64,000 nt of DNA from a virus: positions 1 to 64,000 of IMG/VR virus record IMGVR_UViG_3300032246_002986; one strand, 5' to 3'. Below the pieces are notes generated by a model. It worked only from the letters and a program-made list of their open reading frames with translations, searched no databases and was not told where the DNA came from. A program made the position numbers and the translations under genes. Positions 8,751-57,958 of this stretch are shown here, in pieces; positions within the stretch are counted from its first letter, which is position 1, and the number at the start of each line of letters is the position of its first letter.

Positions 8751-8781
8751 AAATTATAATTTGATGATGGAGAAACTAAAA

Positions 8782-9946: not shown

Positions 9947-10006
9947 AGGAAAGGGTCTGATCACAGCAGATCCAATTGGTAGGCGAGGCGGGGGCCGTAT
10001 CAATAC

Positions 10007-10034: not shown

Positions 10035-10063
10035 GGTATTATGATGATAGAGGGGTCATAATT

Positions 10064-13874: not shown

Positions 13875-13875
13875 T

Positions 13876-26472: not shown

Positions 26473-27892
26473 TGTCTGCCCTGTACTTACACTCGTCCCA
26501 CCACTCTGTCATTTCTGGGAATGTATTTAAAAAGTTTGTACCACGTCTATTATCGTGTTCTGTAAAAAATCGGTAAAAGTCTGCTTTGACCACAGGATCG
26601 TCCCGGCGATTGGCTCGCATCCAATCCACAACACGTTGTAGCCGCTGTATCTCATAATCTTTGAACCCTTGGAAACGCCGGGTTTCCGTTTCAGGAGTCT
26701 GTCTCATCCAGTCTGTGATCTGTTGCAGCTTCCAAGCATAGGCTTCGGGCATGATGTCCAGGCACTGCCAAGTTGGGCTGCGTAGTATAGGGGTATCGAA
26801 CCACACACGTTGATAATCAGTGCTGAATTCCTGTCTGAGTTTCAGGATGGTATCCAATAAATTTTGTAAACCACCTATGCTGAGATTGTTCATTGTTATG
26901 ATGAATGTTATGCTGCTGCGTTTGTCCACATCAGATAAGAACTGGCCCACGTTGGTTATCATATGGTCATAATCCAGTCCGTGCCTGATATAATCTGCCT
27001 GCTCGTATGCGCTGTCCACACTGACAAACTGCATGAAGTGTTCCACAGCACCAGTGTCACATATCTTCTGCACCGTATTGATATACTTGAGCATCAGATG
27101 ATCTTCTACACTGAAGTTGCTGGTGACATTCAGATGCAGATCAGGTTTGGGATTTGCTATCACATAGTCCAACACACGAAAGGTGTTTTTGTCCATAAGC
27201 GGTTCACCACCGGTCATACGGAAATGTTTCAGTTTAGGATACAGATCCGGCCACCAACGCCAGAACGCTTCTACATAAGGATTATGGTCACGAACAGGAA
27301 TAGGCTTACGATCACTAGCAAAATATTGTGGATCGTTATGTCTGTTGGACGTGGGGTACGCTCCATACTCTTTGATCTCCTTGGCCCAAGTGCTGCTGAA
27401 CTGGGGGCTGCAATAACTGCAACGAAGATTGCAAGCACTGTTGAAATTCACTTCCACGTAACTGGGGATCACATCCCAGGTCAGTGGGTCTTTTGTGGTT
27501 ATGTCTGCATAGGCTTCTGCTGCCCAGGGTTCACCACTGCGGTAATGCCTGTCGCTCAGGTTACCCGTGGCTTCCACTTTCCAGCAATAACTGCAACCCT
27601 GCGGTTTCTGGCCTTGGAGCATCTGTACTCGTTCGGATTTTTTATGACTGGTGTTATGTAGCGCACTGGGGTTATCTTGTAAATCATCTGCATTGATCCT
27701 GTGTAATGGTGGATGATAACAACTGTTGGTGTGTCCAGTTGTCAGGTGTAGGCTGGTCTGTTGCCATTTGGCCAAGCACAAGGCTGGTCCGAGCTGGGCT
27801 TGCATCTGCTCAGCACTGCTCATGAACTCGCTGTTGAGTGTGCCGTCGGTATTTACTGTCACTTTATCACCGGAATTTTCTAGCTGCGTCAC
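26465..27892 (-). CDS. Radical-SAM protein 7 (475 aa, GTG start)
   Basis: GTG start at 27892, with AGGAG nine bases upstream, inside the end of the previous gene. N-terminal C39-L-A-K-W, N-S-C58-Y-H-P, G-C100-S-Y-C103, and the core C154-x3-C158-x2-C161 (CNLRCSYC) with T-G-G-E-P. Paralogue of protein 6. First radical-SAM gene reached by transcription from the 31 kb promoter. Confidence 0.86.
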   Translation of the reverse strand: MTQLENSGDKVTVNTDGTLNSEFMSSAEQMQAQLGPALCLAKWQQTSLHLTTGHTNSCYHPPLHRINADDLQDNPSALHNTSHKKSERVQMLQGQKPQGCSYCWKVEATGNLSDRHYRSGEPWAAEAYADITTKDPLTWDVIPSYVEVNFNSACNLRCSYCSPQFSSTWAKEIKEYGAYPTSNRHNDPQYFASDRKPIPVRDHNPYVEAFWRWWPDLYPKLKHFRMTGGEPLMDKNTFRVLDYVIANPKPDLHLNVTSNFSVEDHLMLKYINTVQKICDTGAVEHFMQFVSVDSAYEQADYIRHGLDYDHMITNVGQFLSDVDKRSSITFIITMNNLSIGGLQNLLDTILKLRQEFSTDYQRVWFDTPILRSPTWQCLDIMPEAYAWKLQQITDWMRQTPETETRRFQGFKDYEIQRLQRVVDWMRANRRDDPVVKADFYRFFTEHDNRRGTNFLNTFPEMTEWWDECKYRADNA

Positions 27893-39640: not shown

Positions 39641-42600
39641 TTAACTGGTCCTTAGGAAAGCTGCCTGTGTTTTATTGCTGGTTAGAATACTTTCTCCAGG
39701 ATTGACGAACATGACGCCCTGTGTAAACACGGATCCGTTTGCTATCAATCTGGTGTTATTGTAACCATTACTTAATAAAATATCCTTATCAGCTGTGATA
39801 ATAGTGTCTTGGCTGTTGGGTATTTCCATGAAACTGCCGGTGTCTTGCACCAATGTGCCAGCTTGATGTACTGTGGCTGCACCTGTTCCAGCAGTGCCTC
39901 TGCGTAGATTACCCAATCTGTTGTTAATCCTATCGCTATAACCATAGATTATACGTTCGCCATTTACAAATACTATACCAGGCAGGTTATTGCTGGCATC
40001 TGGATTTTGCAGCTTACTAACATCATCCACATACATCCAAGTATCGGTCAGATTCAGATCCTGTTTCAAGTAAGTGGTTTTATTAGGCTTGACTGCATAA
40101 TATTTTGTGTTGTCTTGGATATCCTTGAATATTCTAAATTCCACAGCATTCTGTCTTGTATCGCTGGCAAATATTCTCACAACTATGGTGCTGTTGCTGC
40201 TTACACCCAGGTCGTCACTTAGGATCAATTTAGTGGGTGTCTGCAGATAATATTCACTATAGGGACTGAGATTATAACCACCAGTGGTGTTCGGATCTTT
40301 CAGTGTGATGTACAGCTGGTTGTAGTTGTACACAGGCACAGGCAGTGTGAAAGTGCTGTTGAGGATAGCAACAGTGTTGAGTTCGTTATCGAATGGACTT
40401 TCGAAACCGTTGTTATCGAAACCAAGATCTATCACGGTAGTGGTATTGGTGCTGCCACTGAATATTTTTGTATACAAACCGGTCACGTCGTGATTGCCCA
40501 TTGTTACCGCTGTAACAACGTCATATTGGTTCAAAGTAATCCTGTTACTTAGGATCAATGTGTTGTTACCGTAAATCCTGTAATCAGCACTGCTGTAATC
40601 TCCGATAGTTATTTTACTGTTCAATGCAGGCGCTGTGGTAAAGACCACGTCCACATACCAAGTGGTGACGCTGCCCACTGTGACACTACGTTTGTTCAAG
40701 GTGTAATCTATGGTGTCTACCTTGGTCACACCATCAACCACTACTACGATATCGTCGCTTATCACTATGCTGTAATCTTTCACATAGCTGTCTGTAAGAG
40801 TGAAGGTGGTAGTGATGGCATCTCCGATGTAATAACTCTGTTGGCTGGGAATCAGATCATTCTGGTTCAGTCTGACGATAGTGTAGGCCCCAATGGGATC
40901 AACATATTCGGCAGGGTTGGACAGATAGAAAGTATAATCGCTGGCATAACTGGGGCTGCTGCTATTAACAACAAAGGTCTGCTCTGTTATCTCGGTATAT
41001 GCTCGGGTTCCCAGTGCCAGATTGTACAAGTGTATCTGTACAAAATCATTTTCCGCAGGAGGTGTATCGAATCTCACACTGAGAATTTTCCTACCATTTG
41101 TGAGTTTGTTCACCAACTGCCAGTTGTTGACTTTGGATCCATTGACTTTGACATAAGCCTGTTGCACATCGCTCAGGACGTTGTCTGTAAGATCGAAATC
41201 AGTTTCTGCACCATCCGCATAGAGATTGAGATCATAAACTGGGTTCACACCAGTGCTGCCCAACATTATGAAATATAATCCATCGCCGTCTTGCGGGCTT
41301 GTTGTGAAATCTACGGTTTTATTATACCAATCTATGGTAAAATCGGTATTTTCAGCCTGGGGGTTGCCCTTTGGACCGCTATTATCGTTGAAAACCAATA
41401 TCTTTTCGATGCCGCTCTGTGGCCAACTGACACCTGTGACAGCAGGGTCGAAGCTGTAACTCAGCACGCCTTTGCTGGCACCAGTGCTGAACACTTTTAT
41501 TTCTGGTCCGCCGCTTCCTGCTAGTGTCCTTACTTTGATATCCAATGTATCGCTCATTATGCCAGGCACAAGTTCTTCAGGAGCGTGGCTGCTGTATGTG
41601 TCCACATATTCACCGCCCAGCACGATGATATCTTCTGGTCTCAACCCCAACTTGCTGTCGGTGTAACTACTGATGATGTTAGTGTCTTCTTCATAATTAC
41701 CCGCAGTGTCATACACGCCACTGATATCTTTGGTTTGGACATCGTAAGTTTTTGTGTCGAAATTCACTATATCATAATTTGGTGTCGCAACAAACACAGG
41801 TCCCAGGACATTCACGCCGCCGTAATGGATACCGGTCATCAACTGAGCTAGATCTTTGCCTGCTTGTCCCAGGGTAGGGCTGTAGTAACTCCAGATCCTA
41901 TCGCAAGCATTGTCCAACCATAGACCATTATATGCACTGAGATATTCCATATCGAATACATTTTTGCTAGTAAATACACTGGCAAGTTTATAATTGATGC
42001 TCAGTGTACCTGCAGATGCAGGTGCGGTGAAGAACACAACATTTGGACTATTAATATTATCACGTATGATAACATAGTCTATATTTTCAGTTAACGCGGT
42101 GCTGTTCAAAGTCACTATGATGTTATCATTGGTGACCAGTATGCTGTTGGTGTTGTTTGTTTGATCTATGGGATAACTTGTCTTGACACTATCTGTAGTG
42201 TAGGTGGTCACTTTGTTTATTTCAGCAACATAACTTGCTCTATTATAGATGATGATATCGTGAGCATCATAATCTGTATAGGGATACCATACTTTTACTT
42301 TAAGTGGTAAAAACTTAGTGAAATCGAATTTTTCAGTGCTGGTATGGTTGGCAATAACCCTATATGGTTCAAAATTATTGACTACCACTGTATCTATGCT
42401 ATATGTAGTATCTGCCTGCCAATCCTGTATATTATTGAAGTAGGTATAACGATCAAATTTGATCGTGGTGTCGAAACTACGTGCCACATTGTTACCTAGT
42501 ATAGGCACTACTTTAGCGCCTGTGCCCAGACCATAGACCACGACTTGAGCATAAGTGTAATCTTTGCCCATATTTGTTACATTGACGGTATAAACGCCAC

Positions 42601-45600
42601 CGTTCAAGATCTCGACCGTGGCTGTGGCGCCTGTGCCATCACCTATCACTTTGACTGTAGTGCTGCCTGTGTAACCTGTGCCAGAACTTACCACATCTAT
42701 CCTGATAACCTGATACTTGTGATTGTTATTCCAAGGCTGATATATGGCTTTGGTTTCGATCAGGTTGGTGTCCAAGCTATTTCCCAGCTGTGGACTGCGA
42801 TATGTTTTGCTAGTGGTATTGTAGTAACTGGGCAAATCGAAATCGCTCACACCAGTATTGGCGTAATCTGGACTGTTTTTATTGTCGTACTTGGCCACAT
42901 ATTGCTTCAACTTGGTGTGGAAAGGTTTGACTTCTTGGAAGAAGTCCGTGACAATGGTTTCTGGTTGTGGCAAGTATACTGGCAGTTTGTCCAGACCTCG
43001 GACACGGTGATAGATGTCTACGAAACTGGTTTTAAACAACCAATCATTTTGCAGATGTTGATTAGCGGCAGTATCTATCATTATCTTGATGAGATTCTTG
43101 AATTTGCTGCGATATTCTGCAATCAGCAGCTGGTTTTGTACCACTTCAAAAATATGTCTGAATTCTATGTTATTGTCGCTAGCGAATCCTGAAGCTTCCA
43201 GGCTTGCAGTCTGATAACCAAATCCCGCTGATACCTGATCATATAGACTGGTGGCAAATTCGATAGTTCCATTTTGTTGGGCTATCAATTCTATGTTGTT
43301 ATTGTTTATCAGCACGATTTTCCAACCATTGCTGGTGCTGTTCTTGATATAGATTATCTGGCCAACTTTAAGGTTTATATTGCTTAAATCTCGTTCTGTA
43401 TCCAGGATGTAATCAAAAACGATGCTGTCGTTATACTTGGTGCTGTACCAATCCTTATAGGACCAATAATTGTTCACATTGAATTTTTGTACTTTATACA
43501 ATGACCAAGATCTTGTACCCACGGCGTCGCTGACAAGTTTATACACAGCCCATCCTTTAGCCGTGATGTCATCGCTCACTAATGCCAGATCATCTATCAG
43601 ATATTCATTTTTATTAAGGAATTCCAATTCTTCATTGTTGTTTACTTTTACAGTGTATGTGTCTGCGATGGGTTCTGCATCCACATAATCCAGTGACTCC
43701 ACAGCCTTGTTTCTGGTCAATACTATGGGAAACTCTGTGCATATGGCATTCAGTTGCTCTATATAGAACTTTCTTGCAGTGAAGCTATCCTTGAATATGT
43801 TTTGGCGAGGTCTGAGATCTATACCATATTTCTCATTCAAGCTCAGAGCAGGATCCGGTACCATTCTGGTACCGCTGTCTTGGTTCGCCAGACTGTCATT
43901 TAGCTTATTAAGAAACTCTTCTGCTACACCTAGATCTGTTCCATCATCGAACAGTGTCCATTCCACGTGGACAGGTTTGGGGTTATTGATAGTTTTATAT
44001 TCCACTACCACATTGGTGTCGTTATTGATTAAACTAGCAGCGTTGTAAATGGCGAAGCTGCCGGAATTAATGACAGTGGCAAAAGCATCCTGGGTATTTT
44101 TAGGATTAGCTATGGTGTTCTGGATTTCCAATGCAGTGGGACGGGATTGACCTGGTCTCACTCTCAAGCTGTTGCGTACCCAGAAGTAGTACCTGGTCAC
44201 CGGTAATCCAGTCTTGGTATCGATAACCACTTTTGTGCTGTAAACATTGTTTACAGTGTAAAGCGGAGGACTCAGCGGATTCTTAGCAGCATAATCGCTG
44301 GGGATAAGATCGCTTTCGATCCATTCGTAAATGCTCACTGTGCTGTTGGGGAAAGCCAGGGACCAGGTATTGAACTGATCCAGGGTGGATCCCTGAGTGT
44401 AGTCATAATATTTGATACTGTTTGTATCCCACCACAGGCTGCCTACTTTTTCCGGACCCCAGTTATTTTTCTTGTCAAAAGCAAAACTAACTGTAGTGGG
44501 AACGTTACTGTATGTGGCAGGATCATAATTGACACTGTAATCGATATAACTTTCCATGCTGTTTGGCAGCTTATTTTGGAAAATGTCCACTATAGGCAAT
44601 TCTTTTATCAATAAACCAGTGGTAGTGTTATACAGATAGATCCTGGTTATTAGACTGCTATCGTGCTTAGTTTTGGATTGTCTGATAGTCTGCCAATTGG
44701 GTGTGCTAGTTTTATTATAGTAAACGTGCATCACACCAGTGGGATTGCCTAAAGTTTTACCATTCGGTGCCCCCACTACGATATACTGTTTACCTATGTC
44801 TATGCCTGTGCTGAATCTATCCAGACTGGAGATTGTCTTGGTGCTGATAAGACTCGCATATGCAAAGTTTCCGATATCATCTGCAGTCTCTGTGAGGCTT
44901 TGTTGATATTCATACAGATGTGCTGCACCGCTGCGATATATTGTATCGTAATATCTGAGACTGAAACGATCAAAACTGGTTAAATTGTTGTCGAATGTTG
45001 TCGTCAGACGATTGTTGCTCAGTGTGGCGCCGATTACAAGGCTGTTGCCCCAATAATTCAGATTCAACTTTTCACCGAATCTTTCTGTATCCTGATTCAA
45101 TGGACTGAATATTTTCTGGACCAGTTTAACTGGACTTAAACCCAACTGACCCACGGTATTGATTAGTTCTTGTCCTGCGACAGGAACGTTGCGGATATCT
45201 AGTTTGTTGTTGCTTGTGGTATCAGTACTGTCGATCTTGATATAACCGCTGCTGCTTATACTGGCAACTACTCCTCTGATATTTGCCTGGTTGATATCAT
45301 TCACTGCACTGGCTATGGTATTACCAGTGAATGTAACTATGAAATCATTGATACTGATCTTGCTACCAGTGAATTGTTCACTCAATGTGCTGACTGTGCC
45401 GGTCACAGAGCCGTACTGTCTTCCTACATCCACAAATCTATAAACTATACCATTGTTGGTAGTGGTGTTATTGAAGTTAGGTGCGCTGACATAATAGCTA
45501 CAACCAGTGGGACAGACAGCGACTTTCTGGCCAAAATTCATTTTTTCCTGGCCGCTGTCTGGATACAATGTGTTTTTCAATACCAATTGATTGGTGTCGA

Positions 45601-48600
45601 TTTTAACTATGCTGTCTGTGTCAGGAACATTAGCCAAGCTGATGAAATTATTTGCAGCATTATACGTAAAGCCGGACACGACACCATCCACATAAACAGT
45701 GGGATCGCTGATATTGCTCACGGTAGTGAATGTGCTGACGTTACCGTTGGCCACATATTTTTCCGCAGATCTGGCAAATAGATATGCTTGCCCATTTTTG
45801 TTATAGATGACATCTCTGGTATAAGAATGGTCCGGATCTCCCACCAAGAGCAGGCTGCCGTCGGAATTGGTACTGATACTGGTTCCCAGGCTGATGGATT
45901 CCAACTTGTCCTGATCTAACAGGCCAACTTCTTTGAACCAGCTGCTATAAGTGAGGTGGATGGCAGCGGCATTGGCTGGAGGATAATAAAAAGTTATGCT
46001 ATCAGCATCTGGTGTTTTATAATAATCCACATCAGGAATCTGTAAGATACCGTCAACTGTGATTTTCACATCTCTTGCTGTCAGACTTTGGTTCAATGCA
46101 TCGTTAGGAAAGGCAAATTCGCTGGTAGCACCAGTACCTATACGGTAACTGACATTGCTGGTTACTTTCTTGTATTTGTAAGACCAGACATTATTGGTCA
46201 CCACATCGCTGACATACATCCAGCTACCATCGCTGCTCATGATTACATCAGTACCGAATGTACTACCTGGAGCCAGATTGGGATAGATGGTGAGCCTGGT
46301 ACCAGCTGCTATAGTCGCAGTATTATTGATGCCTATGATGCTATACAGATTGGTGCCGCCTGGCCACAAGTTGTTGATATAGGTGTTGGCTGGTATGCCA
46401 CTACCCAGTATAGCCATACCATTGGCCAGACCGGTCAAACTACTGGTGTTGGCCAGCAAGATATTGGCATTGCTGGTGCTTGTGACGCCTGTGGTGAGAT
46501 AGTTATAGTTGTCATAATGTATGACCTGATCCAGAATTATGGCCTGGCTGTTGGCGATGGCGACATATACACTGCCCTTGCTATTATATTTTGGTGCTGT
46601 TATGGCTACCAGATTGTTGTCATTGATATCCAGGTTGGTACCGAAACCGCTGCCACCCACATTGATATTGTTGCTGACCTGGCTGAATATCTTGACGAAG
46701 ATGTTGGCGCCATTGGATACAGCACTGTTGAACACCAGCACGTTGGGACTGTTGATGGTGTAATTGGCTGATGTGACGATGTTTCCGCCCACGCTAACTA
46801 GTGTGTTGCTGGTGCTGGCTCCATTAGGCAATATGAATGTTGTATAAGTGCCGTTACCTGTATTGCCATAGAGTTTAGTAGAGGTATAAGTCACACCTCC
46901 CTGTCCCTGGCCAGGATCTAGACTGCTTATCTCTCTCCAGTTACCGCTCTGATCCTTGTTGTAGACAAACACCTGACCGCCGAATCCTTTATCAGGTGCG
47001 CCTACAACAGTGATGCTTTCACTGGTATTGATTCTTATGCTGGTGCCGAATTGATCTGCTGGTACACTATATGTGGGACTGTGGGTCTCACTGTAGATCC
47101 AATTGGCTTTGTTTTGTTTGACAACGAACTCATCTCCGTTATCGATGTAAACTATTTCCCCAGTCAACCAACCTCTCACAGGTGTCTTGTATGTGAAATC
47201 CTGAACGTTGCTGAATCGTACATTTGTTAACTTGTACACGTTGGCATTCAAGCTGCCGCTGCTGACAGTGCTGTTGTTGGTGATTTTCACAGTGAAGCTG
47301 GTATTGGTGGCTCTGGTTACACGGTAAAAACCGCTGAGATCTATAACGCCGGCAGTGGTGCTACTGGAGCCAGTCTTGGCGTTCTTGAGCATGACATAAT
47401 CCAGCACCACGAGTTTGTGGGGGATATCTGTTATGAAAGTTATCTCTGTGGGACTGGTCTGGTTTACGTTGATAACTTTCACATTGCCATTGGCTGAAAG
47501 TCTATAAACTCCCCACTGGTTGCTGCTGTCAGCAGCTATCCAAATCTTACTGCCTTCGCTCAAGATGGTGTTTAATTTACTAATATTGTATATTTTGTTT
47601 ATATCGAACACAGTGGCATTGACATCTGTCAACTGGACAGGTCCTGCACTTGCATAGTTTTCTTTAGGTGCAGTAATGGCAGTGAATGGTTCCAGTGTGT
47701 AGGATTTGGGTTTGATCAACAGGTCTGTGTACTTCACACTGTTGTAGATATCGCTGCGCTGGTCGGTCTGGGACACAAACTCGAACAAATAATTGTTGTT
47801 TATGACTTTACTGTTGGCAAGACTGAATTCGATTTTTTCTCTGTTGCTGATGCCACCGTAGCTGCCGATCTTCACAGCCCATTGTTCTTTGATCTCCAGG
47901 TCGGTGTTCAAACGATTCTGGCTGTTACGCAGGAAGGCATTCATTACCGCCTGTGTGCCTTTTTGCTTGATCATACCCAGATAGAACTTGTATTGGCTGG
48001 TGCGATCCATACCCAGATCCGTGAAATACTGGCGATCCTGGAATCCGAAAGCGTGTTTGCTTTGTCTATCTGCCGTGGTATTGAGGTCTGGACTGTCGCT
48101 GTCGTAGAAATTGGTGAACTGAGCTGCTTGGCTTGCCATATTTGGCATCAGTTGCTTGTTGAGCATATCGCCGTTTATCTGATACCAGTTACTGGCGGTA
48201 AATTTCTTGTTGCCAGGGATGAAGTTTTGTGCAGCATAATATTGATTCTTATAGAGTACTATATCACCTTTGTAATAATCAGTGAAACTGGCCCATTGTT
48301 CCACTGGCACGTGATTTATCAGGAACCCAGGAGCATAAAGACTACCGTTCCATTCACTGGTTTTAGCACCATCCAGACGCAATCTGAACTGTCTGCTGCC
48401 GATCTTTTCTTCATACAGCACATCGTTGAACACTGTTTTGTTATCGAACACCAGGCAATGTTCATATTGTACCACTGCTATGTCCAGCAGGTGTATGCCT
48501 TTTTGTTGGTTTTTCAGATTGATATTGAAATAATTGTCTTCACGGTATACTCTGTAATCGCGACCCGTCAACACTACCCCGTCGCTGTCTATGACTTTGG

Positions 48601-51600
48601 TATAGTTGTGATCATTGGTTATTTTATCCACGATACCGAAAGGACTGTTGAAACCCAATTTGGTTCCAGCTGGTGTGAGACTGATAACGGTGCTGCTGCC
48701 CCAATTCTGCTGATTCCAGAACAGGAATTCTTTTGCACTCAATGTGAAATCAGATATAGTGGCATTGTCTGGCAACAGGTTATCGAAAACAAAACCCTGA
48801 TTTTCCAGATATCTGCCATAGCTTATCAGGAAGTCCACGACCTGTTGTTGGCTTGTGAAAATGGTATTATAAGGATAGCTGGTGACAGAGTCGTAACTGT
48901 CCTGATAGACGATAGCACGTTCGCTACCGCTGGTGATGGTGTAGTTGTTGTTGGTGACACGGCTGGGTATCACCAGGAAGTATGGTCTTTCTTTATCGAA
49001 TCCATTGATCTGGAAACCACTGGCTGTCTTCTGGATGATCACAGCACTGTAGACGGCACGGCTCACAGGCGCACTCTTGCTTACTATCAGTTCATAATTC
49101 TCAGCAGGTATCAGGATACTGCTGTTGCTGCTCTGTGGGCTTACCTGGTCGGCCACCACTGTGAGATAACTCTTGTCAGTGAAGCCTGCCATCTTATACA
49201 CCAGATTGAATGTGCTGTTTTCCACAACATCGGTCCAGTGGCTCTGGCTGTCCAGGTTCAAATATGTGAGACGTTCTTGTATCCAGATGTTTAAACCTGG
49301 CACATATTCGCTAGGGCTGCTTAATTTGAAATCGAACATACGATTATTGTTGGCAACGTTTATGATCTGATCCAGTTTGCTGTTGTAAACCAGGTCTCTG
49401 GTATTATACTTCAATGCACAATATTCTGCAGGACGAGCCAGCATCCAGGCCAGTTGCACAGCGAATGGATAGTCACTGCTGCGTCTCCAGGCTGTCTCCT
49501 GTGGACTTTGGTCGCCTATCCTCCAATTATCTGCTGCTGTGCTGTCATCATATGATGTCACGATGCTTTGCAGCGGAGGCAACAGGTTACCGTGTTCATC
49601 CACTGGGATTATCTTGGTCAAACCTGGTCTGGAATAACGGGTATCGATATAACTGGCACTGGGATTGCCGTTATACACTTTACCTGCTTCCAGATCTTTC
49701 CACAGGCTCAAATTTTGTCCTGTGTAAGGCGCAGGTCCATAATAGGCTTCCCACCAGGTTGGTTTAATGCTGAAACCCAGCATTTCCCAAGGATGAGTAT
49801 GAGGTCTGTCTGTGTCATAGAAGTACTGATAGATACCTCTCCAATAACCAGGAACCGTATCTTTGAACAACTTGTCCGTGGCTTTGCTGTAATTGAAGCT
49901 GAATAGGTCGCTGGTCTTGACAAGTGCTTGTAGCGTATTCTCGAATACGTTGACCTTATTGTTGCTGGCCCAAGTCAAATAACTGGTGGCCAGCAGTTGT
50001 GTCCACTCAGCAAGGCTGTAATCAGTTTTACGGAAAGCACCTGGCACCACACTGGGCAGATCGAAATTGCTGTTGTTCTGGTATGACACCTCTATGTTGT
50101 TGTAAACACGTTTTTCATATTCCAACAGGATATAGTCTCTGTAGTCGCCGTAAGCAACGGTGATGCTGCCATCGTGTCCCACTATGACCTGCTGTGCGCC
50201 GCTGCTGTAAGTGTCATCAGTGCGTATTTCAGGTATGAACTTGGGGTATAGTCCCAGTTTAGTAGGTGTTGCTGGCACACTGCATCCGGCAGTAGTTGTG
50301 TATTCGTGTACCTTCAATACATCATTACGCACTATCGTCAGGCTGTCCAGTAATGTCAGAGTGTAGTTTACTAGGCTGTAATCCCTGTCTTTAACCAACA
50401 GAACGTCGTTGAGATAAATCAATACTGCCTGATAACCATAGGGTTTGGAAGCATAACTGTTTGTCAGATTAAATGTGCGATAAGTGGTATTTGCTATGGT
50501 ATATTGGTTTATGATGTAACTGTTGCCAAACGCCACCATATCTGTGTAATAGTAGTTGCTGGTAATCATGCTATTCTGGTTGAAATTCTGCAGGATTATA
50601 TCCACACAATCTTTATAATTGCTGCTATTGGGGAATTGGTTGTTATTCAAATAGTCTATGAATTGGTATTTGAAATTCTGGTAACTTTGCGCTGCAAATA
50701 CTATGGCTTTAGCAGGATCAGCATCTTGGTTAGCCAGCATCAGAGCAGCTGGTCGTAGGCTAGCACTGTGCTGTAGCAATTTACCACCGATATTGGTGTA
50801 ATTGATATCACGGAAATTATTGCTACCAGCAGCACTACCAGTCATCTCCAAGCTGTTATTGCCTATTTCGATCAGATGGTTACGCAGATCTCCCAGCGTA
50901 ACTTGTGTTAAATCTTCGTTACCGCTGTTGAAGTTAAGATTTTTAGGTATGCTGTAATCTTGCTTATAATTTAAACTGCTTCCGAATATTTTTATGAAAA
51001 CACGATCAGTAGGCACCAGAGCAGTGGCGAAAGTTATCACACAGCTGGTATTGCTGGTTTTGATGGTGTAATCGGTATTCTGTGCTTTTAATTTACTGTT
51101 GACGTAAACGAACAGATTATTTTCAAAATAGCTGTTGCTGTATTTGACATCCAGATCGAAATTATTTGTCTGTAATTCAGTGACATCTATGGTTTTACAG
51201 ATGTACTGCTTGCTCTTATCTGTAACGCTCTTCCATCCATTGGCGAATTTGTAATTATCGTAACCATTGATGATAGCAGCATAACCCATATTGATGTTTT
51301 TTACTGTATCGGCTTTATTGTAGTTGTAATTGAATAGGTCGGTGTTGTAGTAATTTTCGAATACTATGTCGCCGATATTCCCTATGTTTTTATAGACAAG
51401 CGGAAAACCCAGTTCTGTATCACGACTGCCTGTGCCTATGGCATAATTAAACAGGTAGCTTCCTGCGAAATTACTGCTGGGATATGCACCAGTATCGCTC
51501 AAACTGATGCTGTCATTGTCCAGGATGTCGAAAAGAGGAAACTGTGGACGACTGGTCTTCTGTTGGCAAGCGATGTATTCATTGTTTAGGAATTTGTAAA

Positions 51601-54139
51601 CCTGTCCCTGTCTCACTGTGCCTTCCATTGCAACCACAGTGTCTCCATCAGAAAGTTGTTTAACGGGCACCAGGTTGATTTGGCTAGCTGTGTTGTCCAG
51701 ATAAAATTCGGTGGCTCTGGGAATGTCTACTACCAGGTTGTTGCTTAAATAGACCAGATTATTGACTGTGTCCACGTATTTGACAGTGGCAGTGATGTTA
51801 TTGCCAAAAATATTAGTGATTTCTGTACTGGTATTGGTATCCATACAATAGCTGTATACTTTTTGTCCTTGCACTATGTTATTAACATCATAGACACTGA
51901 TGACATTCGTACCCGCTGTGCTGTAATTATAAGTTGGATCCGTGGTATATGTGGCAGCGTTTACGTTGCGACTATAGTAGCTGGTTATCCGATAGACTGT
52001 CTTCCTTACCTCTGGATCGTGATCATTAGCAAACACCACTGTCAAACCATCCAGCAATTCTATACCGTCGGTGTCGAACACACCATCTGTATTGATGGCT
52101 CCGCTGTTCAAACCTTCCACTTCCAACATAGCATTGTTTATTTTAGTGTCAATTACTGTGACAGGACCTGCAAAGTTATCTCCGTAATTGAACAATTTAA
52201 GATCAGGCAGGAATTCGATGACAGGTCTTTTGGCCTGATCAGCACTGTCGAAAACAAAAACCTGGTTGGAAACATCTGCTGCATATTGCAAAACATCACG
52301 ATGGAACCAGCGATTGTTACGGCTCCAAGGATTGCCGTCTCTGCTGCTGCGATTGATCACCATGTAATCTTTTTGTGTAGGAGCATTGAGAGTGGCATCG
52401 AAGTTACCAGCATCATATGTGGTATCACTGAAGTAGTCACTGATGTTGTTGTTGATAATTTCCGGGGTGACTAGATCTTGCCAAGGTATCAATTTGATGC
52501 CTTTGCCCACTTGTTCTACCACGTACTCATTATCCTGGTAAGACTTGGGATAGACGTTGCCTGTGAATTTAATTTTCAGTCCGCTGGTGAATTTCACACC
52601 ATTGGGACTGATATATTGATCTCTGCCCAAGATCTGGTTGATGTTCAATTGGGCACTGCTGCCGCTATCAACCAGGTTGATCACTCCATATATCAGGGGA
52701 TTATCCGCATCCTGATAGTAAAGCGTATCCACGTTGGCTGTGAGATTGGGGAATGGCAGGACCTGACCACTGCTGTTCTTGTAGCAGTACAGATGCCCAT
52801 ATTTGGTTCCCTGGTTGACGAAAGTCTTATATTCATTAGGCCAGCCCGTTTCATAGGTCAATTTGATTTTTCTGAAATCAGGATTGGGTAGCTGGTTGTA
52901 AAAACCCACGAATACACCTGTGTTGGTCACTGTGGCAGGTTGGCTCAATACCAGAGTGGTAGTTCCTGCCCCGCTCACCACAGTGGTACTTGGCACTATG
53001 CCCTGACCGTATATGGCCTGACCGTTGACGATTCCGGTGCTGCTGGCAACTGTGATAGTGTTTGTGCTCAACAGCGTGGCAGTGGTGCTTGCTATCAGGC
53101 CACTCAATATGGTGGGATTGCTGTTGGTGACTACACGCCAGATTCCTGTGCGTTGTTCCTGTGGCACATCTGCCCAGGTATCCGCATAAGGAACATTGAT
53201 ATAGATCAATTTGTTGTCAAAGCTACGCACACCATCCATATTGTACTGGGTGATGAAATCATCGTAATTTTGATCCTGCATCTTGTTGTAGGGCACATCC
53301 ACGATCATATCGATTGTCAGGATATCAGGTAGGTTTAACAGTCTATCCTGTGCATCTTTAGTAGGCACATTGAAAATCAGGGTACCCTGATCCTGTCCGT
53401 TATTGACCACGCCCAGAACATCACGTGGGTTGATGTTGCTTTGTACAGTGCTAGTGCCAGTGGTGCCTATTTCGCTCTGGATCCAGAATCGGTGCCCTGG
53501 CTGATTCAATGCAAAAGTGTATTTGCCACCTCGTTGTAATGTTATAGTGGGATTGGTGCTGCCTGTGTAGCTGCTGATGTTATAACCGCTTTTGCCGATG
53601 CTTGCGCTCTGTACTTCAGTCTCATCGGTGGTCACATAACTGATGCGGTCCACAGTGAAATTCTTTTCCAGAGGCACACCTGCCGCTGTGACATCCACTG
53701 TGAGCGGGCCATTGGGAACCCAATAATATTGCCTGTAATTGGTCAGCTTGTCCAGATCCACGAAGCCATCATAATTGTAGTACTGGTTAGTGAACAGGCG
53801 GCTGTGATCGTTGTTCAGGCCACCGTTGCTGCTCAACTGGTTCAGCAATTCAGGATAGCTGTATACATTGTCTATCTTGTAGGTATTGCTATTGAATTGT
53901 TTCTTTTTGACTATTACGCCTGGCTCTAACTGGTAAAATTGGCTGTAACTGTCTGCTTCCCCGATGTAATAATCGTTCTTGTCATATATGGTGCTCTGAT
54001 CTTGTTGACCGATATATCCGAATATCTTTTTGAGACTGGGTTCCTGTATCAGTTGATCCACTGTGGCATTCAACAGTCTCTGATTAGTCGCAGTACGAAA
54101 AACACTGGGTAGAAATTCGGAACTTTTACGCTTTGCCAT
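39641..54139 (-). CDS. Giant virion structural protein, probable baseplate/tail component (4832 aa)
   Basis: One uninterrupted frame of 14.5 kb. The N-terminus (SSEFLPSVFRT, then LNATVDQLIQEP and F-G-Y-I-G) matches my memory of large tail proteins beside gp6 in T4-like marine phages; the position recalls gp7/gp8, but identity is not proven. Regions: conserved N-terminus with N-D-H-S-R-L-F and Y-Y-W-V-P-N-G-P; a possible cupredoxin-like beta domain near 190-280; many beta units with a G-x-x-x...D-Y...F...P pattern; seven FG-GAP-like blades at about 2358-3146; and a C-terminal V-D-D-V-S-K-L...N-G-E-R-I-I-Y-G...L-R-R-G-T domain near 4720-4790. No transmembrane segment. It follows the gp6-like gene by 9 bases and must be co-transcribed. 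Confidence 0.8.
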   Translation of the reverse strand: MAKRKSSEFLPSVFRTATNQRLLNATVDQLIQEPSLKKIFGYIGQQDQSTIYDKNDYYIGEADSYSQFYQLEPGVIVKKKQFNSNTYKIDNVYSYPELLNQLSSNGGLNNDHSRLFTNQYYNYDGFVDLDKLTNYRQYYWVPNGPLTVDVTAAGVPLEKNFTVDRISYVTTDETEVQSASIGKSGYNISSYTGSTNPTITLQRGGKYTFALNQPGHRFWIQSEIGTTGTSTVQSNINPRDVLGVVNNGQDQGTLIFNVPTKDAQDRLLNLPDILTIDMIVDVPYNKMQDQNYDDFITQYNMDGVRSFDNKLIYINVPYADTWADVPQEQRTGIWRVVTNSNPTILSGLIASTTATLLSTNTITVASSTGIVNGQAIYGQGIVPSTTVVSGAGTTTLVLSQPATVTNTGVFVGFYNQLPNPDFRKIKLTYETGWPNEYKTFVNQGTKYGHLYCYKNSSGQVLPFPNLTANVDTLYYQDADNPLIYGVINLVDSGSSAQLNINQILGRDQYISPNGVKFTSGLKIKFTGNVYPKSYQDNEYVVEQVGKGIKLIPWQDLVTPEIINNNISDYFSDTTYDAGNFDATLNAPTQKDYMVINRSSRDGNPWSRNNRWFHRDVLQYAADVSNQVFVFDSADQAKRPVIEFLPDLKLFNYGDNFAGPVTVIDTKINNAMLEVEGLNSGAINTDGVFDTDGIELLDGLTVVFANDHDPEVRKTVYRITSYYSRNVNAATYTTDPTYNYSTAGTNVISVYDVNNIVQGQKVYSYCMDTNTSTEITNIFGNNITATVKYVDTVNNLVYLSNNLVVDIPRATEFYLDNTASQINLVPVKQLSDGDTVVAMEGTVRQGQVYKFLNNEYIACQQKTSRPQFPLFDILDNDSISLSDTGAYPSSNFAGSYLFNYAIGTGSRDTELGFPLVYKNIGNIGDIVFENYYNTDLFNYNYNKADTVKNINMGYAAIINGYDNYKFANGWKSVTDKSKQYICKTIDVTELQTNNFDLDVKYSNSYFENNLFVYVNSKLKAQNTDYTIKTSNTSCVITFATALVPTDRVFIKIFGSSLNYKQDYSIPKNLNFNSGNEDLTQVTLGDLRNHLIEIGNNSLEMTGSAAGSNNFRDINYTNIGGKLLQHSASLRPAALMLANQDADPAKAIVFAAQSYQNFKYQFIDYLNNNQFPNSSNYKDCVDIILQNFNQNSMITSNYYYTDMVAFGNSYIINQYTIANTTYRTFNLTNSYASKPYGYQAVLIYLNDVLLVKDRDYSLVNYTLTLLDSLTIVRNDVLKVHEYTTTAGCSVPATPTKLGLYPKFIPEIRTDDTYSSGAQQVIVGHDGSITVAYGDYRDYILLEYEKRVYNNIEVSYQNNSNFDLPSVVPGAFRKTDYSLAEWTQLLATSYLTWASNNKVNVFENTLQALVKTSDLFSFNYSKATDKLFKDTVPGYWRGIYQYFYDTDRPHTHPWEMLGFSIKPTWWEAYYGPAPYTGQNLSLWKDLEAGKVYNGNPSASYIDTRYSRPGLTKIIPVDEHGNLLPPLQSIVTSYDDSTAADNWRIGDQSPQETAWRRSSDYPFAVQLAWMLARPAEYCALKYNTRDLVYNSKLDQIINVANNNRMFDFKLSSPSEYVPGLNIWIQERLTYLNLDSQSHWTDVVENSTFNLVYKMAGFTDKSYLTVVADQVSPQSSNSSILIPAENYELIVSKSAPVSRAVYSAVIIQKTASGFQINGFDKERPYFLVIPSRVTNNNYTITSGSERAIVYQDSYDSVTSYPYNTIFTSQQQVVDFLISYGRYLENQGFVFDNLLPDNATISDFTLSAKEFLFWNQQNWGSSTVISLTPAGTKLGFNSPFGIVDKITNDHNYTKVIDSDGVVLTGRDYRVYREDNYFNINLKNQQKGIHLLDIAVVQYEHCLVFDNKTVFNDVLYEEKIGSRQFRLRLDGAKTSEWNGSLYAPGFLINHVPVEQWASFTDYYKGDIVLYKNQYYAAQNFIPGNKKFTASNWYQINGDMLNKQLMPNMASQAAQFTNFYDSDSPDLNTTADRQSKHAFGFQDRQYFTDLGMDRTSQYKFYLGMIKQKGTQAVMNAFLRNSQNRLNTDLEIKEQWAVKIGSYGGISNREKIEFSLANSKVINNNYLFEFVSQTDQRSDIYNSVKYTDLLIKPKSYTLEPFTAITAPKENYASAGPVQLTDVNATVFDINKIYNISKLNTILSEGSKIWIAADSSNQWGVYRLSANGNVKVINVNQTSPTEITFITDIPHKLVVLDYVMLKNAKTGSSSTTAGVIDLSGFYRVTRATNTSFTVKITNNSTVSSGSLNANVYKLTNVRFSNVQDFTYKTPVRGWLTGEIVYIDNGDEFVVKQNKANWIYSETHSPTYSVPADQFGTSIRINTSESITVVGAPDKGFGGQVFVYNKDQSGNWREISSLDPGQGQGGVTYTSTKLYGNTGNGTYTTFILPNGASTSNTLVSVGGNIVTSANYTINSPNVLVFNSAVSNGANIFVKIFSQVSNNINVGGSGFGTNLDINDNNLVAITAPKYNSKGSVYVAIANSQAIILDQVIHYDNYNYLTTGVTSTSNANILLANTSSLTGLANGMAILGSGIPANTYINNLWPGGTNLYSIIGINNTATIAAGTRLTIYPNLAPGSTFGTDVIMSSDGSWMYVSDVVTNNVWSYKYKKVTSNVSYRIGTGATSEFAFPNDALNQSLTARDVKITVDGILQIPDVDYYKTPDADSITFYYPPANAAAIHLTYSSWFKEVGLLDQDKLESISLGTSISTNSDGSLLLVGDPDHSYTRDVIYNKNGQAYLFARSAEKYVANGNVSTFTTVSNISDPTVYVDGVVSGFTYNAANNFISLANVPDTDSIVKIDTNQLVLKNTLYPDSGQEKMNFGQKVAVCPTGCSYYVSAPNFNNTTTNNGIVYRFVDVGRQYGSVTGTVSTLSEQFTGSKISINDFIVTFTGNTIASAVNDINQANIRGVVASISSSGYIKIDSTDTTSNNKLDIRNVPVAGQELINTVGQLGLSPVKLVQKIFSPLNQDTERFGEKLNLNYWGNSLVIGATLSNNRLTTTFDNNLTSFDRFSLRYYDTIYRSGAAHLYEYQQSLTETADDIGNFAYASLISTKTISSLDRFSTGIDIGKQYIVVGAPNGKTLGNPTGVMHVYYNKTSTPNWQTIRQSKTKHDSSLITRIYLYNTTTGLLIKELPIVDIFQNKLPNSMESYIDYSVNYDPATYSNVPTTVSFAFDKKNNWGPEKVGSLWWDTNSIKYYDYTQGSTLDQFNTWSLAFPNSTVSIYEWIESDLIPSDYAAKNPLSPPLYTVNNVYSTKVVIDTKTGLPVTRYYFWVRNSLRVRPGQSRPTALEIQNTIANPKNTQDAFATVINSGSFAIYNAASLINNDTNVVVEYKTINNPKPVHVEWTLFDDGTDLGVAEEFLNKLNDSLANQDSGTRMVPDPALSLNEKYGIDLRPRQNIFKDSFTARKFYIEQLNAICTEFPIVLTRNKAVESLDYVDAEPIADTYTVKVNNNEELEFLNKNEYLIDDLALVSDDITAKGWAVYKLVSDAVGTRSWSLYKVQKFNVNNYWSYKDWYSTKYNDSIVFDYILDTERDLSNINLKVGQIIYIKNSTSNGWKIVLINNNNIELIAQQNGTIEFATSLYDQVSAGFGYQTASLEASGFASDNNIEFRHIFEVVQNQLLIAEYRSKFKNLIKIMIDTAANQHLQNDWLFKTSFVDIYHRVRGLDKLPVYLPQPETIVTDFFQEVKPFHTKLKQYVAKYDNKNSPDYANTGVSDFDLPSYYNTTSKTYRSPQLGNSLDTNLIETKAIYQPWNNNHKYQVIRIDVVSSGTGYTGSTTVKVIGDGTGATATVEILNGGVYTVNVTNMGKDYTYAQVVVYGLGTGAKVVPILGNNVARSFDTTIKFDRYTYFNNIQDWQADTTYSIDTVVVNNFEPYRVIANHTSTEKFDFTKFLPLKVKVWYPYTDYDAHDIIIYNRASYVAEINKVTTYTTDSVKTSYPIDQTNNTNSILVTNDNIIVTLNSTALTENIDYVIIRDNINSPNVVFFTAPASAGTLSINYKLASVFTSKNVFDMEYLSAYNGLWLDNACDRIWSYYSPTLGQAGKDLAQLMTGIHYGGVNVLGPVFVATPNYDIVNFDTKTYDVQTKDISGVYDTAGNYEEDTNIISSYTDSKLGLRPEDIIVLGGEYVDTYSSHAPEELVPGIMSDTLDIKVRTLAGSGGPEIKVFSTGASKGVLSYSFDPAVTGVSWPQSGIEKILVFNDNSGPKGNPQAENTDFTIDWYNKTVDFTTSPQDGDGLYFIMLGSTGVNPVYDLNLYADGAETDFDLTDNVLSDVQQAYVKVNGSKVNNWQLVNKLTNGRKILSVRFDTPPAENDFVQIHLYNLALGTRAYTEITEQTFVVNSSSPSYASDYTFYLSNPAEYVDPIGAYTIVRLNQNDLIPSQQSYYIGDAITTTFTLTDSYVKDYSIVISDDIVVVVDGVTKVDTIDYTLNKRSVTVGSVTTWYVDVVFTTAPALNSKITIGDYSSADYRIYGNNTLILSNRITLNQYDVVTAVTMGNHDVTGLYTKIFSGSTNTTTVIDLGFDNNGFESPFDNELNTVAILNSTFTLPVPVYNYNQLYITLKDPNTTGGYNLSPYSEYYLQTPTKLILSDDLGVSSNSTIVVRIFASDTRQNAVEFRIFKDIQDNTKYYAVKPNKTTYLKQDLNLTDTWMYVDDVSKLQNPDASNNLPGIVFVNGERIIYGYSDRINNRLGNLRRGTAGTGAATVHQAGTLVQDTGSFMEIPNSQDTIITADKDILLSNGYNNTRLIANGSVFTQGVMFVNPGESILTSNKTQAAFLRTS
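44712..47065 (-). other. Seven FG-GAP/integrin-like beta-propeller blades in the giant protein
   Basis: Seven units spaced along residues about 2358-3146, each with an opening F-G-T/F-G-Q/F-G-E/L-G-T/F-S-T turn, a hydrophobic strand, and V-V-G-A-P or a variant (A-I-T-A-P, L-V-G-D-P, Y-V-S-A-P, V-I-G-A-T, V-V-G-A-P), then an aromatic Y/V-x-V-Y strand. That is the FG-GAP pattern of integrin-alpha propellers, and seven is the standard blade number. Beta units are inserted between some blades. Confidence 0.65.
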
Positions 54140-54148: not shown

Positions 54149-57100
54149 TTAATACGTGATGCTGCTGAGATTAATACCAGCACTGTTGATACCACTTAGA
54201 ACACCGCTGACAACCTGGACGTTGTCCACAGTAGCACAATTAATGAAGATTTCGTTGGGTAGACATCTGATTTCATACAAGCTACCGAAGTTCGCAGTGA
54301 TGTCCACTGGCACCAAGATGATGCTGCTGAGATGTCCGTCCATTTTTTGATGGATATATGCACTCAATTCGCTGAAATAAAATGTGCTACCGAAGTCCCA
54401 ATTTTCCAATGCGAAGTAGTTATTGATAGTATCGATGACTCGGCTTTTCAATTCCGTGTCACTGATAGTGGTGCCTGGGCTCTTGATGATCTGGAAATTG
54501 GCCTGTAGGCTTTTGGCGGATTTGCTGCCGAACAACAGCTTATACACACCGGCATTCAGGATCATCTCATCGCTCAACATCTTGTACTGGAATAGATCGC
54601 TGTAGCTGTTGTTGAGAGTTGTGGTATCCAGATCTGCTGGTTTGCTAACAGTACCTGTCAGATCCAGAACATAGTTTCTGTATTGCTCGTCATAACTGCG
54701 TGTGAGGATGTAGGTGTCGATCAGATTGCTGGGGGCAGGATCGATTCTTCTTGTGTTTTCTGCATTGTGCTGGTATTCGAATACCAGATTTTGTCTACCA
54801 CTGAATGCCAGATATTCATCAGATACATCTGTGAGGGAGTTCACTGCATTCGTGGTAGTGATCTGCCAAAACTTCTTGTCGGTTGTAGCATATAGCGTTT
54901 TGCCAGCTGAGAAATTATTACGCACAGTCAGGATATCGCTATATGTCTTATATGTGTAATTTACCACACCCAGATCCTGCAGGCTATATCTCACCAAGTT
55001 GTCTATATCCACGTATTTTTTAAAAAATACCTTGCCAGTGCCTGCATTGAGATTGGTGAATATCTCGGGATCGTTGGGCAGGTTACTGAGATTGTTAACA
55101 GGATAGGTAACTTCCACCCTGGTGCTGTCCAGATATCCATCAGATTCTATGATGTTTTTGTACACGTTGACGTTTATGTCGTTGAGCAACAAAGTATTGA
55201 CACTCAAGATCCTCACATTGTCTTTGACCAGAGTATTGGTGCTGCTGTCATACACTTTGGTAGGGTTGGTGTTGATGAAGGCTACCTGCCTGCTGCTACC
55301 GAAAACGAAATCTTGTTGACGGTAAGTCACGGTGTATTTGACACCATCCGTGTTGAATTTGAACAACCAACTGCTGTCGCTGCTGCCATATTGGCTGTTG
55401 AGATCGAAGTTGTTGTCACTGACTTTATTAATGGGGATGATAGTCCAAGGATCTGTGACACTGCTGGTTTTAGCGTAATCGTAAACCAGCGCGAATTCTG
55501 TCTTGTTTATGATGTAATTGGTCAGCGTGTTGATGGTGGTTATCTGGAAATTGGTGCTCCAGGGAGCATATACTTTTTCCAATATAGCACCAGTGGGGAT
55601 ATTATCGCTCAGCGTCACAGCGCCTATGTTACGTCCAGCTACCAGGACAGTAGTGGCACCTGTACCAGTGACGCTCTGTATATTGGTCCAGATGTACTGT
55701 TTGTCGGTCTCCAATGTGATAGCACCCTGAATTAGCGTATTGTTCACATCAAAATAGTAACCAGTGGGCGCACTGAATTTAACCAAACTGCCCACTTTCA
55801 GATATTGTCGCACACTCGTGGTGCTGGATCCTATGGGCATTATAGTTTTACTGGCGTCTAAAAAGAAACCTGTGCAACTGCTTACATCATTGGTACTGCG
55901 GCTCCAAGTAGTGAATGCCAGAGTGGGCATATACAGCGGAGTGTAATTTTCATAATAGAAGTGTTTTGTAGGGTTGCTGTTGAGCAAAGGCATTATGTTG
56001 TTGTCTATAACAGCCAGGATATCGTTCCTGCTGGTATATGTGAAATCGAAGCTCTGCAGATAGTTATTTTTGTAAAACACACCATCCTTGGCATAGATGT
56101 CGGTGCTGCTATATTTTCCAGTGGGATCAGTGATGTCCAATCCACGGCTGACGCCACTGGCAAAACGGTTGACGCTCTTGACTTTAACTATATCGCTATA
56201 AGTGGTGTAGGGCAGGATGTTGTAATCTTCTCCGTTGACCATACGATTCTGGGTATAATAAGCCTGCGGTGCCTTGGCTTTGATCTCATTTGTCAAATCC
56301 CTGCGGCTGCTGTTGCTGACAGTGTATTGCAAGCTGGCGTTGATGGTCAGTGTTTCTGTCCTGCCCAGCTTGCTCACATAAGGTATGGCCACTGTGACGC
56401 TGCTCATATCGCTGGGGCTGATGCGGTATGTCTGTCCATTGCTGATACGGTAATACACACGATAGTTGCCCAGTGGAATGTCAGCGAAACTGCCATCGCC
56501 GAATACCAGATCGATCTGATCGTTGATCCTGGTGTTTACGCTGTACAATGTGCGTATTCCACGAGCAGTGCTGTTGTAGATGGCATTGCTGCCAGCGGTG
56601 CTGGGTACCTGTGTCCACTGGTTACCTATAGTGCTATTATTGATTTCATACATCCAGATATCATTGTTATTGATATTCTGGTTGTTGATGCTGAACACAC
56701 GATTGGCTACTTTTTCCGTGATGCTGAAATCCAGGCTGGTCAATGTGCCTTGTTTGAAATACAAGAAAAATCCAGTGTTGGGACTGCTGTTGCCACGGCT
56801 GTCATTCTGATATACGAAGCCAAATTGTCCACGTGTGCCAGGATCCAATTCGCTGATGGTGTCAGTGGTCAATATGCTGGCACTCAACACTTCGAAATTC
56901 ATGGTGTTCTGGGCTACTAGACTGCTGAATCCGAACACAGGCAGTATGGTAGTGGGCACAGCAACATTATATTGCTCTGTACGCACACCATTGATTGTCT
57001 TGTTTGCATAGGGTTTGCCGATCTTTTGACCGCTGCCCAGTGCAGCATTGAACACTTGGGTCATCTGGCCTGCCCAATTGGCATTGTTGGCATCGTTCCA

Positions 57101-57523
57101 CACGATGTTCACACGGCTCAGATTCTGGTTATTGATGTCTGTGATGCTTTCAGTGGTGTTGATGCTCTGTATCTTTAAAAATCCACTGGCGCTGCGATTG
57201 CGGCTGGGATTATAATTCAACTGTTTTACCAGTTTCAATACACTGTCGCGTCTTTCAGCCGTTTCCAGGAAATTTTCTCTGGCATTCAAATCGGTCCTGA
57301 ACGCGATACTTTGTGCAGTGAATGCTATCAGATCCAACAGTGCCACATATTCTGAACTTTCGATGAAGTCGTTGAAATCTTCAGCATAATAGGTCTTGAT
57401 GTAATCTATCATGACTTTTCTGATAGTTTCAAAGTCATAACTCTGGAAATCTGCTTCACTAAAAGTGGTGTAGATTTTCTTCCAGTCTTCAGTCGCGAAT
57501 ATGTTGGTTTGTCTAGTTGCCAT
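54149..57523 (-). CDS. Baseplate wedge protein, gp6-like (1124 aa)
   Basis: Builds the inner wedge ring of the baseplate. The N-terminus resembles T4-superfamily gp6: IFATEDWKKIY, a Y-I-K-T-Y-Y-A-E-D-F-N-D-F segment, and S-E-Y-V-A-L-L-D-L-I-A-F...A-F-R-T-D-L-N-A-R-E-N-F-L-E-T-A-x-x-R-D-S-V (about 60-98), the wedge helix set shared with P2 gpJ-like proteins. It is much longer than T4 gp6 (about 660 aa), from extra beta domains in the middle and C-terminal half. AATAAATA lies upstream. The gp25-like and hub genes are next to it, as expected for a baseplate cluster. Confidence 0.85.
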   Translation of the reverse strand: MATRQTNIFATEDWKKIYTTFSEADFQSYDFETIRKVMIDYIKTYYAEDFNDFIESSEYVALLDLIAFTAQSIAFRTDLNARENFLETAERRDSVLKLVKQLNYNPSRNRSASGFLKIQSINTTESITDINNQNLSRVNIVWNDANNANWAGQMTQVFNAALGSGQKIGKPYANKTINGVRTEQYNVAVPTTILPVFGFSSLVAQNTMNFEVLSASILTTDTISELDPGTRGQFGFVYQNDSRGNSSPNTGFFLYFKQGTLTSLDFSITEKVANRVFSINNQNINNNDIWMYEINNSTIGNQWTQVPSTAGSNAIYNSTARGIRTLYSVNTRINDQIDLVFGDGSFADIPLGNYRVYYRISNGQTYRISPSDMSSVTVAIPYVSKLGRTETLTINASLQYTVSNSSRRDLTNEIKAKAPQAYYTQNRMVNGEDYNILPYTTYSDIVKVKSVNRFASGVSRGLDITDPTGKYSSTDIYAKDGVFYKNNYLQSFDFTYTSRNDILAVIDNNIMPLLNSNPTKHFYYENYTPLYMPTLAFTTWSRSTNDVSSCTGFFLDASKTIMPIGSSTTSVRQYLKVGSLVKFSAPTGYYFDVNNTLIQGAITLETDKQYIWTNIQSVTGTGATTVLVAGRNIGAVTLSDNIPTGAILEKVYAPWSTNFQITTINTLTNYIINKTEFALVYDYAKTSSVTDPWTIIPINKVSDNNFDLNSQYGSSDSSWLFKFNTDGVKYTVTYRQQDFVFGSSRQVAFINTNPTKVYDSSTNTLVKDNVRILSVNTLLLNDINVNVYKNIIESDGYLDSTRVEVTYPVNNLSNLPNDPEIFTNLNAGTGKVFFKKYVDIDNLVRYSLQDLGVVNYTYKTYSDILTVRNNFSAGKTLYATTDKKFWQITTTNAVNSLTDVSDEYLAFSGRQNLVFEYQHNAENTRRIDPAPSNLIDTYILTRSYDEQYRNYVLDLTGTVSKPADLDTTTLNNSYSDLFQYKMLSDEMILNAGVYKLLFGSKSAKSLQANFQIIKSPGTTISDTELKSRVIDTINNYFALENWDFGSTFYFSELSAYIHQKMDGHLSSIILVPVDITANFGSLYEIRCLPNEIFINCATVDNVQVVSGVLSGINSAGINLSSITY

Positions 57524-57571: not shown

Positions 57572-57958
57572 TTAAATCACATACAATTTTTTTGTCTTGC
57601 TATCGAACAAAACATTGAGAGCTGCTTGTTTGTTATCTGGAGAGAATGTCAACTGGAAATTGAGCACCAGTCCACGACCATCCGGAGACTCTTGCACAGT
57701 GGTGTTTTGCACCACACTAAATCTGGGATCATAACTGATTATGCTGTCTATATTGGCTTTTATTTCTTGTTTGAGCGCATTTGTCAGTGGATCAAAAAGG
57801 CGATCCCATATGATACAACCGAAATCGGCTTTCATTAGTTTCTCGCCTTTCTTAATCTGCAGGTGATTCAAAAGGTCTTGTACTATCAGATCGTTATCCG
57901 ATACCCTGTAGCTTCCGAAGTCTCTGTTTACTGTGCTGTAACCGCGATATAATGACAT
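57572..57958 (-). CDS. Baseplate wedge protein, gp25-like
   Basis: 128 aa, the size of T4 gp25 (132 aa). Layout of the GPW/gp25 family: an N-terminal arm with DFGSYRVSDNDLIVQDLLNHL, then G-E-K-L-M-x-A-D-F-G-C-x-I-W-D-R-L-F-D-P-L-T (near 40-59), and a terminal beta-sheet (VLNFQLTF). Gp25 starts sheath assembly on the baseplate and belongs with gp6 and gp53. Directly downstream of the hub gene and upstream of gp6. Confidence 0.9.
   Translation of the reverse strand: MSLYRGYSTVNRDFGSYRVSDNDLIVQDLLNHLQIKKGEKLMKADFGCIIWDRLFDPLTNALKQEIKANIDSIISYDPRFSVVQNTTVQESPDGRGLVLNFQLTFSPDNKQAALNVLFDSKTKKLYVI

Follow-up and report, generated by a model that had tools for sequence, protein, structure and literature searches.

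A seven-bladed FG-GAP propeller with the predicted fold of an integrin alpha head sits in a small beta-hairpin of a giant phage virion protein. We found it in the window, the whole 64,000-nucleotide stretch analysed here, which belongs to a virus record of 86,540 bases (IMGVR_UViG_3300032246_002986). The hairpin behaves as a socket: most of the sampled uncultivated relatives carry the propeller there, it has been lost twice, and in one of the groups without it a YHYH domain is found instead. What is new here is the placement of the propeller, inserted into a single beta-hairpin of a conserved scaffold; a search of the open-access literature returned no paper describing FG-GAP propellers in baseplate proteins of phages. 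The features are collected in Table 1.

Table 1. Features of the giant virion protein, its propeller and the neighbouring baseplate genes (window positions; aa, residues of the giant protein)
Feature	Residues (aa)	Position	Strand	Basis or remark
gp5-like baseplate hub + tail lysozyme		57971..62977	-	phrog_13211
gp25-like baseplate wedge		57572..57958	-	phrog_261 and phrog_43
gp6-like baseplate wedge		54149..57523	-	phrog_10646, E 1e-274
Giant virion protein, propeller host (4832 aa)		39641..54139	-	phrog_10938 match, 1113 bits
Conserved scaffold before propeller	1281-2250	47390..50299	-	kept to cultivated jumbo phages
Complete propeller module + both socket strands	2338-3155	44675..47128	-	AlphaFold2 model, integrin alignment
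N-terminal strand	2348-2353	47081..47098	-	integrin alignment begins at model residue 31 (integrin residue 1)
Blade 1	2360-2407	46919..47062	-	profiles + model
Insert between blades 1 and 2	2410-2494	46658..46912	-	present in window protein only, of 16
Blade 2	2495-2541	46517..46657	-	profiles + model
Insert between blades 2 and 3	2542-2626	46262..46516	-	7-262 aa in relatives
Blade 3, insert between strands 3 and 4	2624-2741	45917..46270	-	profiles + model
Insert in blade 3, beta module	2659-2732	45944..46165	-	more copies in same protein
Blade 4, insert between strands 3 and 4	2747-2858	45566..45901	-	profiles + model
Insert in blade 4	2797-2846	45602..45751	-	model, alignment
Blade 5, insert between strands 3 and 4	2864-3010	45110..45550	-	profiles + model
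Insert in blade 5	2905-3003	45131..45427	-	model, alignment
Blade 6, 30-aa loop between strands 2 and 3	3016-3098	44846..45094	-	profiles + model
Blade 7	3105-3155	44675..44827	-	profiles + model
Conserved scaffold after propeller	3148-3820	42680..44698	-	kept to cultivated jumbo phages

A giant protein at the gp7 position

The propeller host matches phrog_10938, a family of giant virion structural proteins with homologues in the jumbo phages CBB, 121Q, PA5oct and Atu_ph07. Along the minus strand the genes run from the gp5-like hub through the gp25-like and gp6-like wedges to the 4832-aa ORF and then to tail-fibre-like genes. Because gp7 follows gp6 in T4, the ORF, directly after the gp6-like gene, occupies the T4 gp7 position. 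This term describes gene order only: the ORF is nearly five times longer than T4 gp7, and hhalign detected no sequence relationship to a single T4 gp7 sequence (probabilities of 0.3 and 0.1 percent). The jumbo-phage members of phrog_10938 share the place after gp6 and the scaffold on both sides of the propeller site. Homologues have been found by mass spectrometry in virions of PA5oct, according to its record annotation, and of CBB (PMC5259590).

Elsewhere in the giant protein, a CBM_5_12 chitin-binding module is matched weakly (E 0.052) at window 48206-48298 on the minus strand (aa 1948-1978), and chitin-binding type-3 is the annotation given to the homologue in phage PAC2. A run of seven neighbouring genes with radical SAM matches lies downstream of the tail genes, at 19149-27892 on the minus strand, two of them with SPASM and two of the seven under the Pfam cut-off; an additional weak radical SAM match lies at 2868-3710 on the plus strand, and Atu_ph07 and Phosso also carry radical SAM genes near the homologous giant gene. 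On the plus strand, a MoxR-like AAA ATPase adjoins a DUF2201 metallopeptidase/VWA protein (8761-11323), and thymidylate synthase is followed by an NDP-sugar epimerase and a DegT-type aminotransferase (13014-15841), which suggests nucleotide and sugar metabolism.

Seven FG-GAP repeats in the sequence

A preliminary description of this DNA had proposed seven FG-GAP-type repeats in the giant tail protein, at 44712-47065 on the minus strand (aa 2359-3143 of the ORF). Profiles and models both give seven, with repeats starting at aa 2363, 2498, 2627, 2750, 2868, 3020 and 3108. The limits given for the region, about aa 2358-3146, also held, with the fold reaching slightly past both (about aa 2338-3155, window 44675-47128). 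FG is exact in five of the seven blades, with LG in blade 4 and FS in blade 7, and AP or DP is found in five (1, 2, 4, 5 and 7).

Each blade was held out in turn and scored with profiles built from only the other blades of the relatives, with 201 shuffled or reversed proteins as decoys. Blades 1, 2, 4 and 6 exceeded all 201 decoys (13.0, 19.2, 14.4 and 6.4 bits against best decoys of 7.3, 5.7, 4.3 and 3.2). Blades 3, 5 and 7 did not rise above the best decoy (5.3, 0.5 and 5.1 bits against 9.5, 5.8 and 5.7), yet each was matched in register. Under the full blade profile each of the seven blades reaches 26-43 bits, and no other part of the window gives a match. The Pfam family FG-GAP_2 (PF14312) matches all 16 aligned propeller rows, counted at E up to 0.1 (best E 7e-21), and the window propeller reaches 35.3 bits against a curated cut-off of 23. 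No single repeat of it passes the threshold alone, and the family entry is silent on function here. A PF14312 search of the 86.5-kb record at E 0.001 returned no match, which we take as a limit of sensitivity because the whole ORF barely reaches 23 bits.

All seven blades are kept in IMG/VR relatives that are 33-48% identical over the propeller. Further afield, a tblastn search of 50,697 phage records with the propeller gave nothing at 1e-5; with a relative as query and E up to 0.1, matches covered only 63-89 aa in an insert region and no run of blades. A pattern scan of genome contigs returned 112 stretches, none of them a relative, and PDB sequence searches with profiles of the propeller, the middle and the C-terminal part gave nothing significant.

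Predicted fold and its relation to integrins

Structure prediction with AlphaFold2 from the 16-row alignment yields the strands of seven four-stranded sheets, matching a seven-bladed fold (mean pLDDT 74.5, pTM 0.78). A second model was built for the shortest relative with its flanks (L031, 34% identical, on the same contig as L005). For fold comparison we chose VIA-align, which only re-ranks Foldseek candidates. All 50 matches listed for the window model are integrin alpha heads (Z 34.3-38.0), the top one among those listed being 9t3y, at Z 38.0 and with 351 residues superposed at an rmsd of 2.8 A. The L031 model likewise has an integrin alpha head as its best match (Z 36.6, rmsd 2.5 A, 342 residues), and its list also holds the WD40 propeller 3fm0 (Z 32.3). 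Used by itself, Foldseek puts generic propellers at the top of its list at low query TM-scores of 0.08-0.31, presumably owing to the inserts. The predicted fold is thus a seven-bladed propeller that is most like integrin and not uniquely so, and the earlier reading of an integrin-like propeller is backed by the sequence profiles together with two predicted models.

Likeness to the integrin alpha propeller, the FG-GAP/Cage type of metazoan and bacterial integrin-type proteins, extends to the seven FG-GAP blades, the predicted fold and the register of the N-terminal strand, which in the model probably closes the ring as part of blade 7. The last strand of blade 7 (3149-3155) is at the same time the C-terminal socket strand. 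There are also differences: identity to the window propeller is 14-18%, FG and GAP are not exact in some blades, the DxDxDG calcium loops are missing, and the propeller lies within a giant virion protein for which no beta-subunit partner is known. Metazoan-type integrin alpha propellers carry the Cage motif in all seven blades and DxDxDG in blades 5-7 (4 in some), and bind ligand together with the beta subunit (PMC3192720). A loosened Cage pattern finds three of the seven window blades (1, 2 and 5), with a fourth match at 2386 off register. Judged by its sequence against these features, the window propeller appears integrin-like in fold and not metazoan-type.

Calcium binding, which the preliminary description had also raised, finds no support, since none of the 16 aligned propellers contains the DxDxDG loop of integrins. 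The blades and fold are of the integrin type, as expected of a calcium-dependent adhesin head in the integrin sense, but besides the missing loop a relaxed pattern finds nothing beyond DPDASG, which immediately precedes the blade 4 FG in three relatives. We regard such a head as most improbable.

Inserts between and within the blades

Blade cores are nearly constant in length among the 16 aligned rows; the insert between blades 2 and 3 ranges from 7 to 262 aa. The window propeller has six inserts of about 30-88 aa each, placed between or within blades, which the preliminary description did not mention. By strand order in the model, two lie in connections from strand 4 to strand 1 (blades 1-2 and 2-3), three between strands 3 and 4 (blades 3, 4 and 5) and one between strands 2 and 3 (blade 6). 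The blade 1-2 connection counts 88 aa in the window protein versus 5-6 in the other rows, and the model does not resolve this window-only insert (pLDDT about 25). It belongs, like the blade 3 insert, to a module that recurs at aa 991-1040, 3976-4051 and 4432-4512 and, more weakly, elsewhere.

Half of the human integrin alpha subunits carry a ligand-binding I domain between blades 2 and 3 (PMC3192720). By analogy, the large blade 2-3 insert of the window protein occupies the same inter-blade place in the model, a likeness of place and not a demonstrated identity as an I domain.

A socket in the conserved scaffold

The scaffold on either side of the propeller shows about 23-34% identity to cultivated jumbo phages. 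Scanning with its C-terminal part returned at least 585 relatives, of which the best 80 of 585 were kept; 75 of these loci have both flanks and were compared, a sample with some near-duplicates and biased toward the nearest relatives of the window. In 70 of these 75 uncultivated loci at least three blades lie at the site. At a relaxed threshold, seven blades are counted in 50 of the 75 loci, six in 15, five in three and eight in two, both eight-blade loci including matches of only 1-5 bits. All 409 blade matches fall inside the site and none elsewhere in 458,000 residues. Five compact forms (L061, L066, L071, L087 and L096) fit seven blades, spaced at 42-87 aa, into a site of about 500 aa.

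The seven cultivated jumbo-phage homologues examined differ in that none has blades at the site, where other sequence takes up about 80 to 1,400 aa, mostly about 80-300 aa. In Atu_ph07 and Phosso (loci at L008 19482-23492 and L013 19479-23525) glycine-rich repeats fill the socket over about 1,400 aa and match no Pfam family. A separate Atu_ph07 protein, annotated as hemagglutinin, has a predicted fold that matches the propeller. A LamG domain suspected by eye in SCTP-2 found no Pfam support. Around loci that lack the module, a search for a separate propeller gene gave no convincing blade match, with one of 7 bits in CBB.

On a midpoint-rooted FastTree tree built on the scaffold alone, presence of the propeller changes three times: at the split between cultivated and uncultivated phages and in two nested losses within the uncultivated group. 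Under this root, gain and loss across the split are indistinguishable. One loss leaves a clean, empty hairpin. L068 and L079, which group with L061 and L066, read GWAVYTYNGSTWTRTRQQSPSVD, and the same hairpin in L061 reads GWGVYTYK, then the propeller, then TAWQLTRYQQPKVD (aligned, GWAVYTYN-GSTWTRTRQQ against GWGVYTYK-propeller-TAWQLTRYQQ). In L102 and L106 a YHYH domain lies at the socket (E 2.5e-31 and 2.6e-29), and the socket stretch of L102 also matches PHROG baseplate wedge families.

Where the propeller is present, it is a real, maintained coding sequence under purifying selection. Between close pairs dN/dS is about 0.05-0.14 for most blade cores and 0.20 for the core of the closest, nearly identical pair. 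Inserts evolve somewhat faster, with values up to 0.38, and no diversifying selection was found between close pairs (dN/dS at most 0.38, with many dS near saturation).

Platform, enzyme or binding module

These observations bear on whether the propeller is a structural contact platform, serving as hub or spacer to hold the baseplate or fibre proteins next to it. Its retention in most loci from the best 80 of 585 relatives means that it is far from freely dispensable within its own clade, and purifying selection on the core and the conserved blade count and insert positions point the same way. Against a platform stand the cultivated relatives, which share the scaffold with a mostly short, blade-less site, the two nested losses, and the substitution by YHYH. 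Baseplates of the lineages without propeller may have been rewired. Relatives that keep the scaffold but lack the module, or carry another domain in its place, make a load-bearing hub unlikely; the structural hub of the preliminary description is hence disfavoured, and we rate a structural platform as rather unlikely.

Many seven-bladed propellers are enzymes, and one acting on host polysaccharide would agree with weak Pfam hints of lactonase/gluconolactonase type (SGL 0.0056, and Lactonase 0.001 in L061). These matches, however, stay under the curated cut-offs and span one or two blades, and the best structural matches are integrins, not enzymes, so that we consider an enzymatic role very unlikely.

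Since the module can be absent or replaced on the same scaffold, we infer that an exposed binding module is its most likely role; of the readings offered earlier, a host-binding head is the best remaining option, with putative binding, although the purifying rather than diversifying selection seen between close pairs speaks against it. Put in full, and with about even confidence, the propeller would be an exchangeable surface-binding module on the baseplate wedge. It would hang off the wedge as an exposed module, and its loop-bearing faces might bind a glycan or protein of the host surface or its surroundings; the variable blade 2-3 insert would be placed like an integrin I domain. As an accessory contact it would aid docking of the baseplate, be dispensable for assembly and act without calcium in the integrin manner.

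Propellers on phage baseplates have precedents. The C-terminal domain of phiKZ gp131 (4GBF), cited in PMC4901313, is a seven-bladed propeller at the baseplate periphery of a jumbo phage with unconfirmed function; the resemblance, by description only, lies in blade number and jumbo-phage baseplate, whereas the window propeller is an insert in a giant at the gp7 position. In the Staphylococcus phage phi11, the receptor-binding protein Gp45 carries a baseplate propeller for which binding of a cell-wall sugar has been proposed (PMC4901313). It differs from the window propeller in having five blades, in being a trimeric, dedicated receptor-binding protein, and in its best DALI match, a glutamine cyclotransferase.

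Implications for jumbo-phage adhesion

A wider proposal, tentative and on present evidence unlikely, is that an integrin-like adhesion head serves uncultivated jumbo phages as a plug-in. It would be an FG-GAP propeller free of calcium, set in a baseplate-wedge hairpin, with exchangeable recognition modules in the blade 2-3 loop, an arrangement that chordate integrins would have reached with the I domain. To our knowledge, host recognition is unknown for most uncultivated jumbo phages. Sockets that are empty or filled with a propeller or YHYH, in otherwise alignable giant baseplate proteins, offer one place to test it, and the compact L061 propeller of about 440 aa is small enough to express. 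The finding extends integrin-type propellers to phage baseplate proteins.
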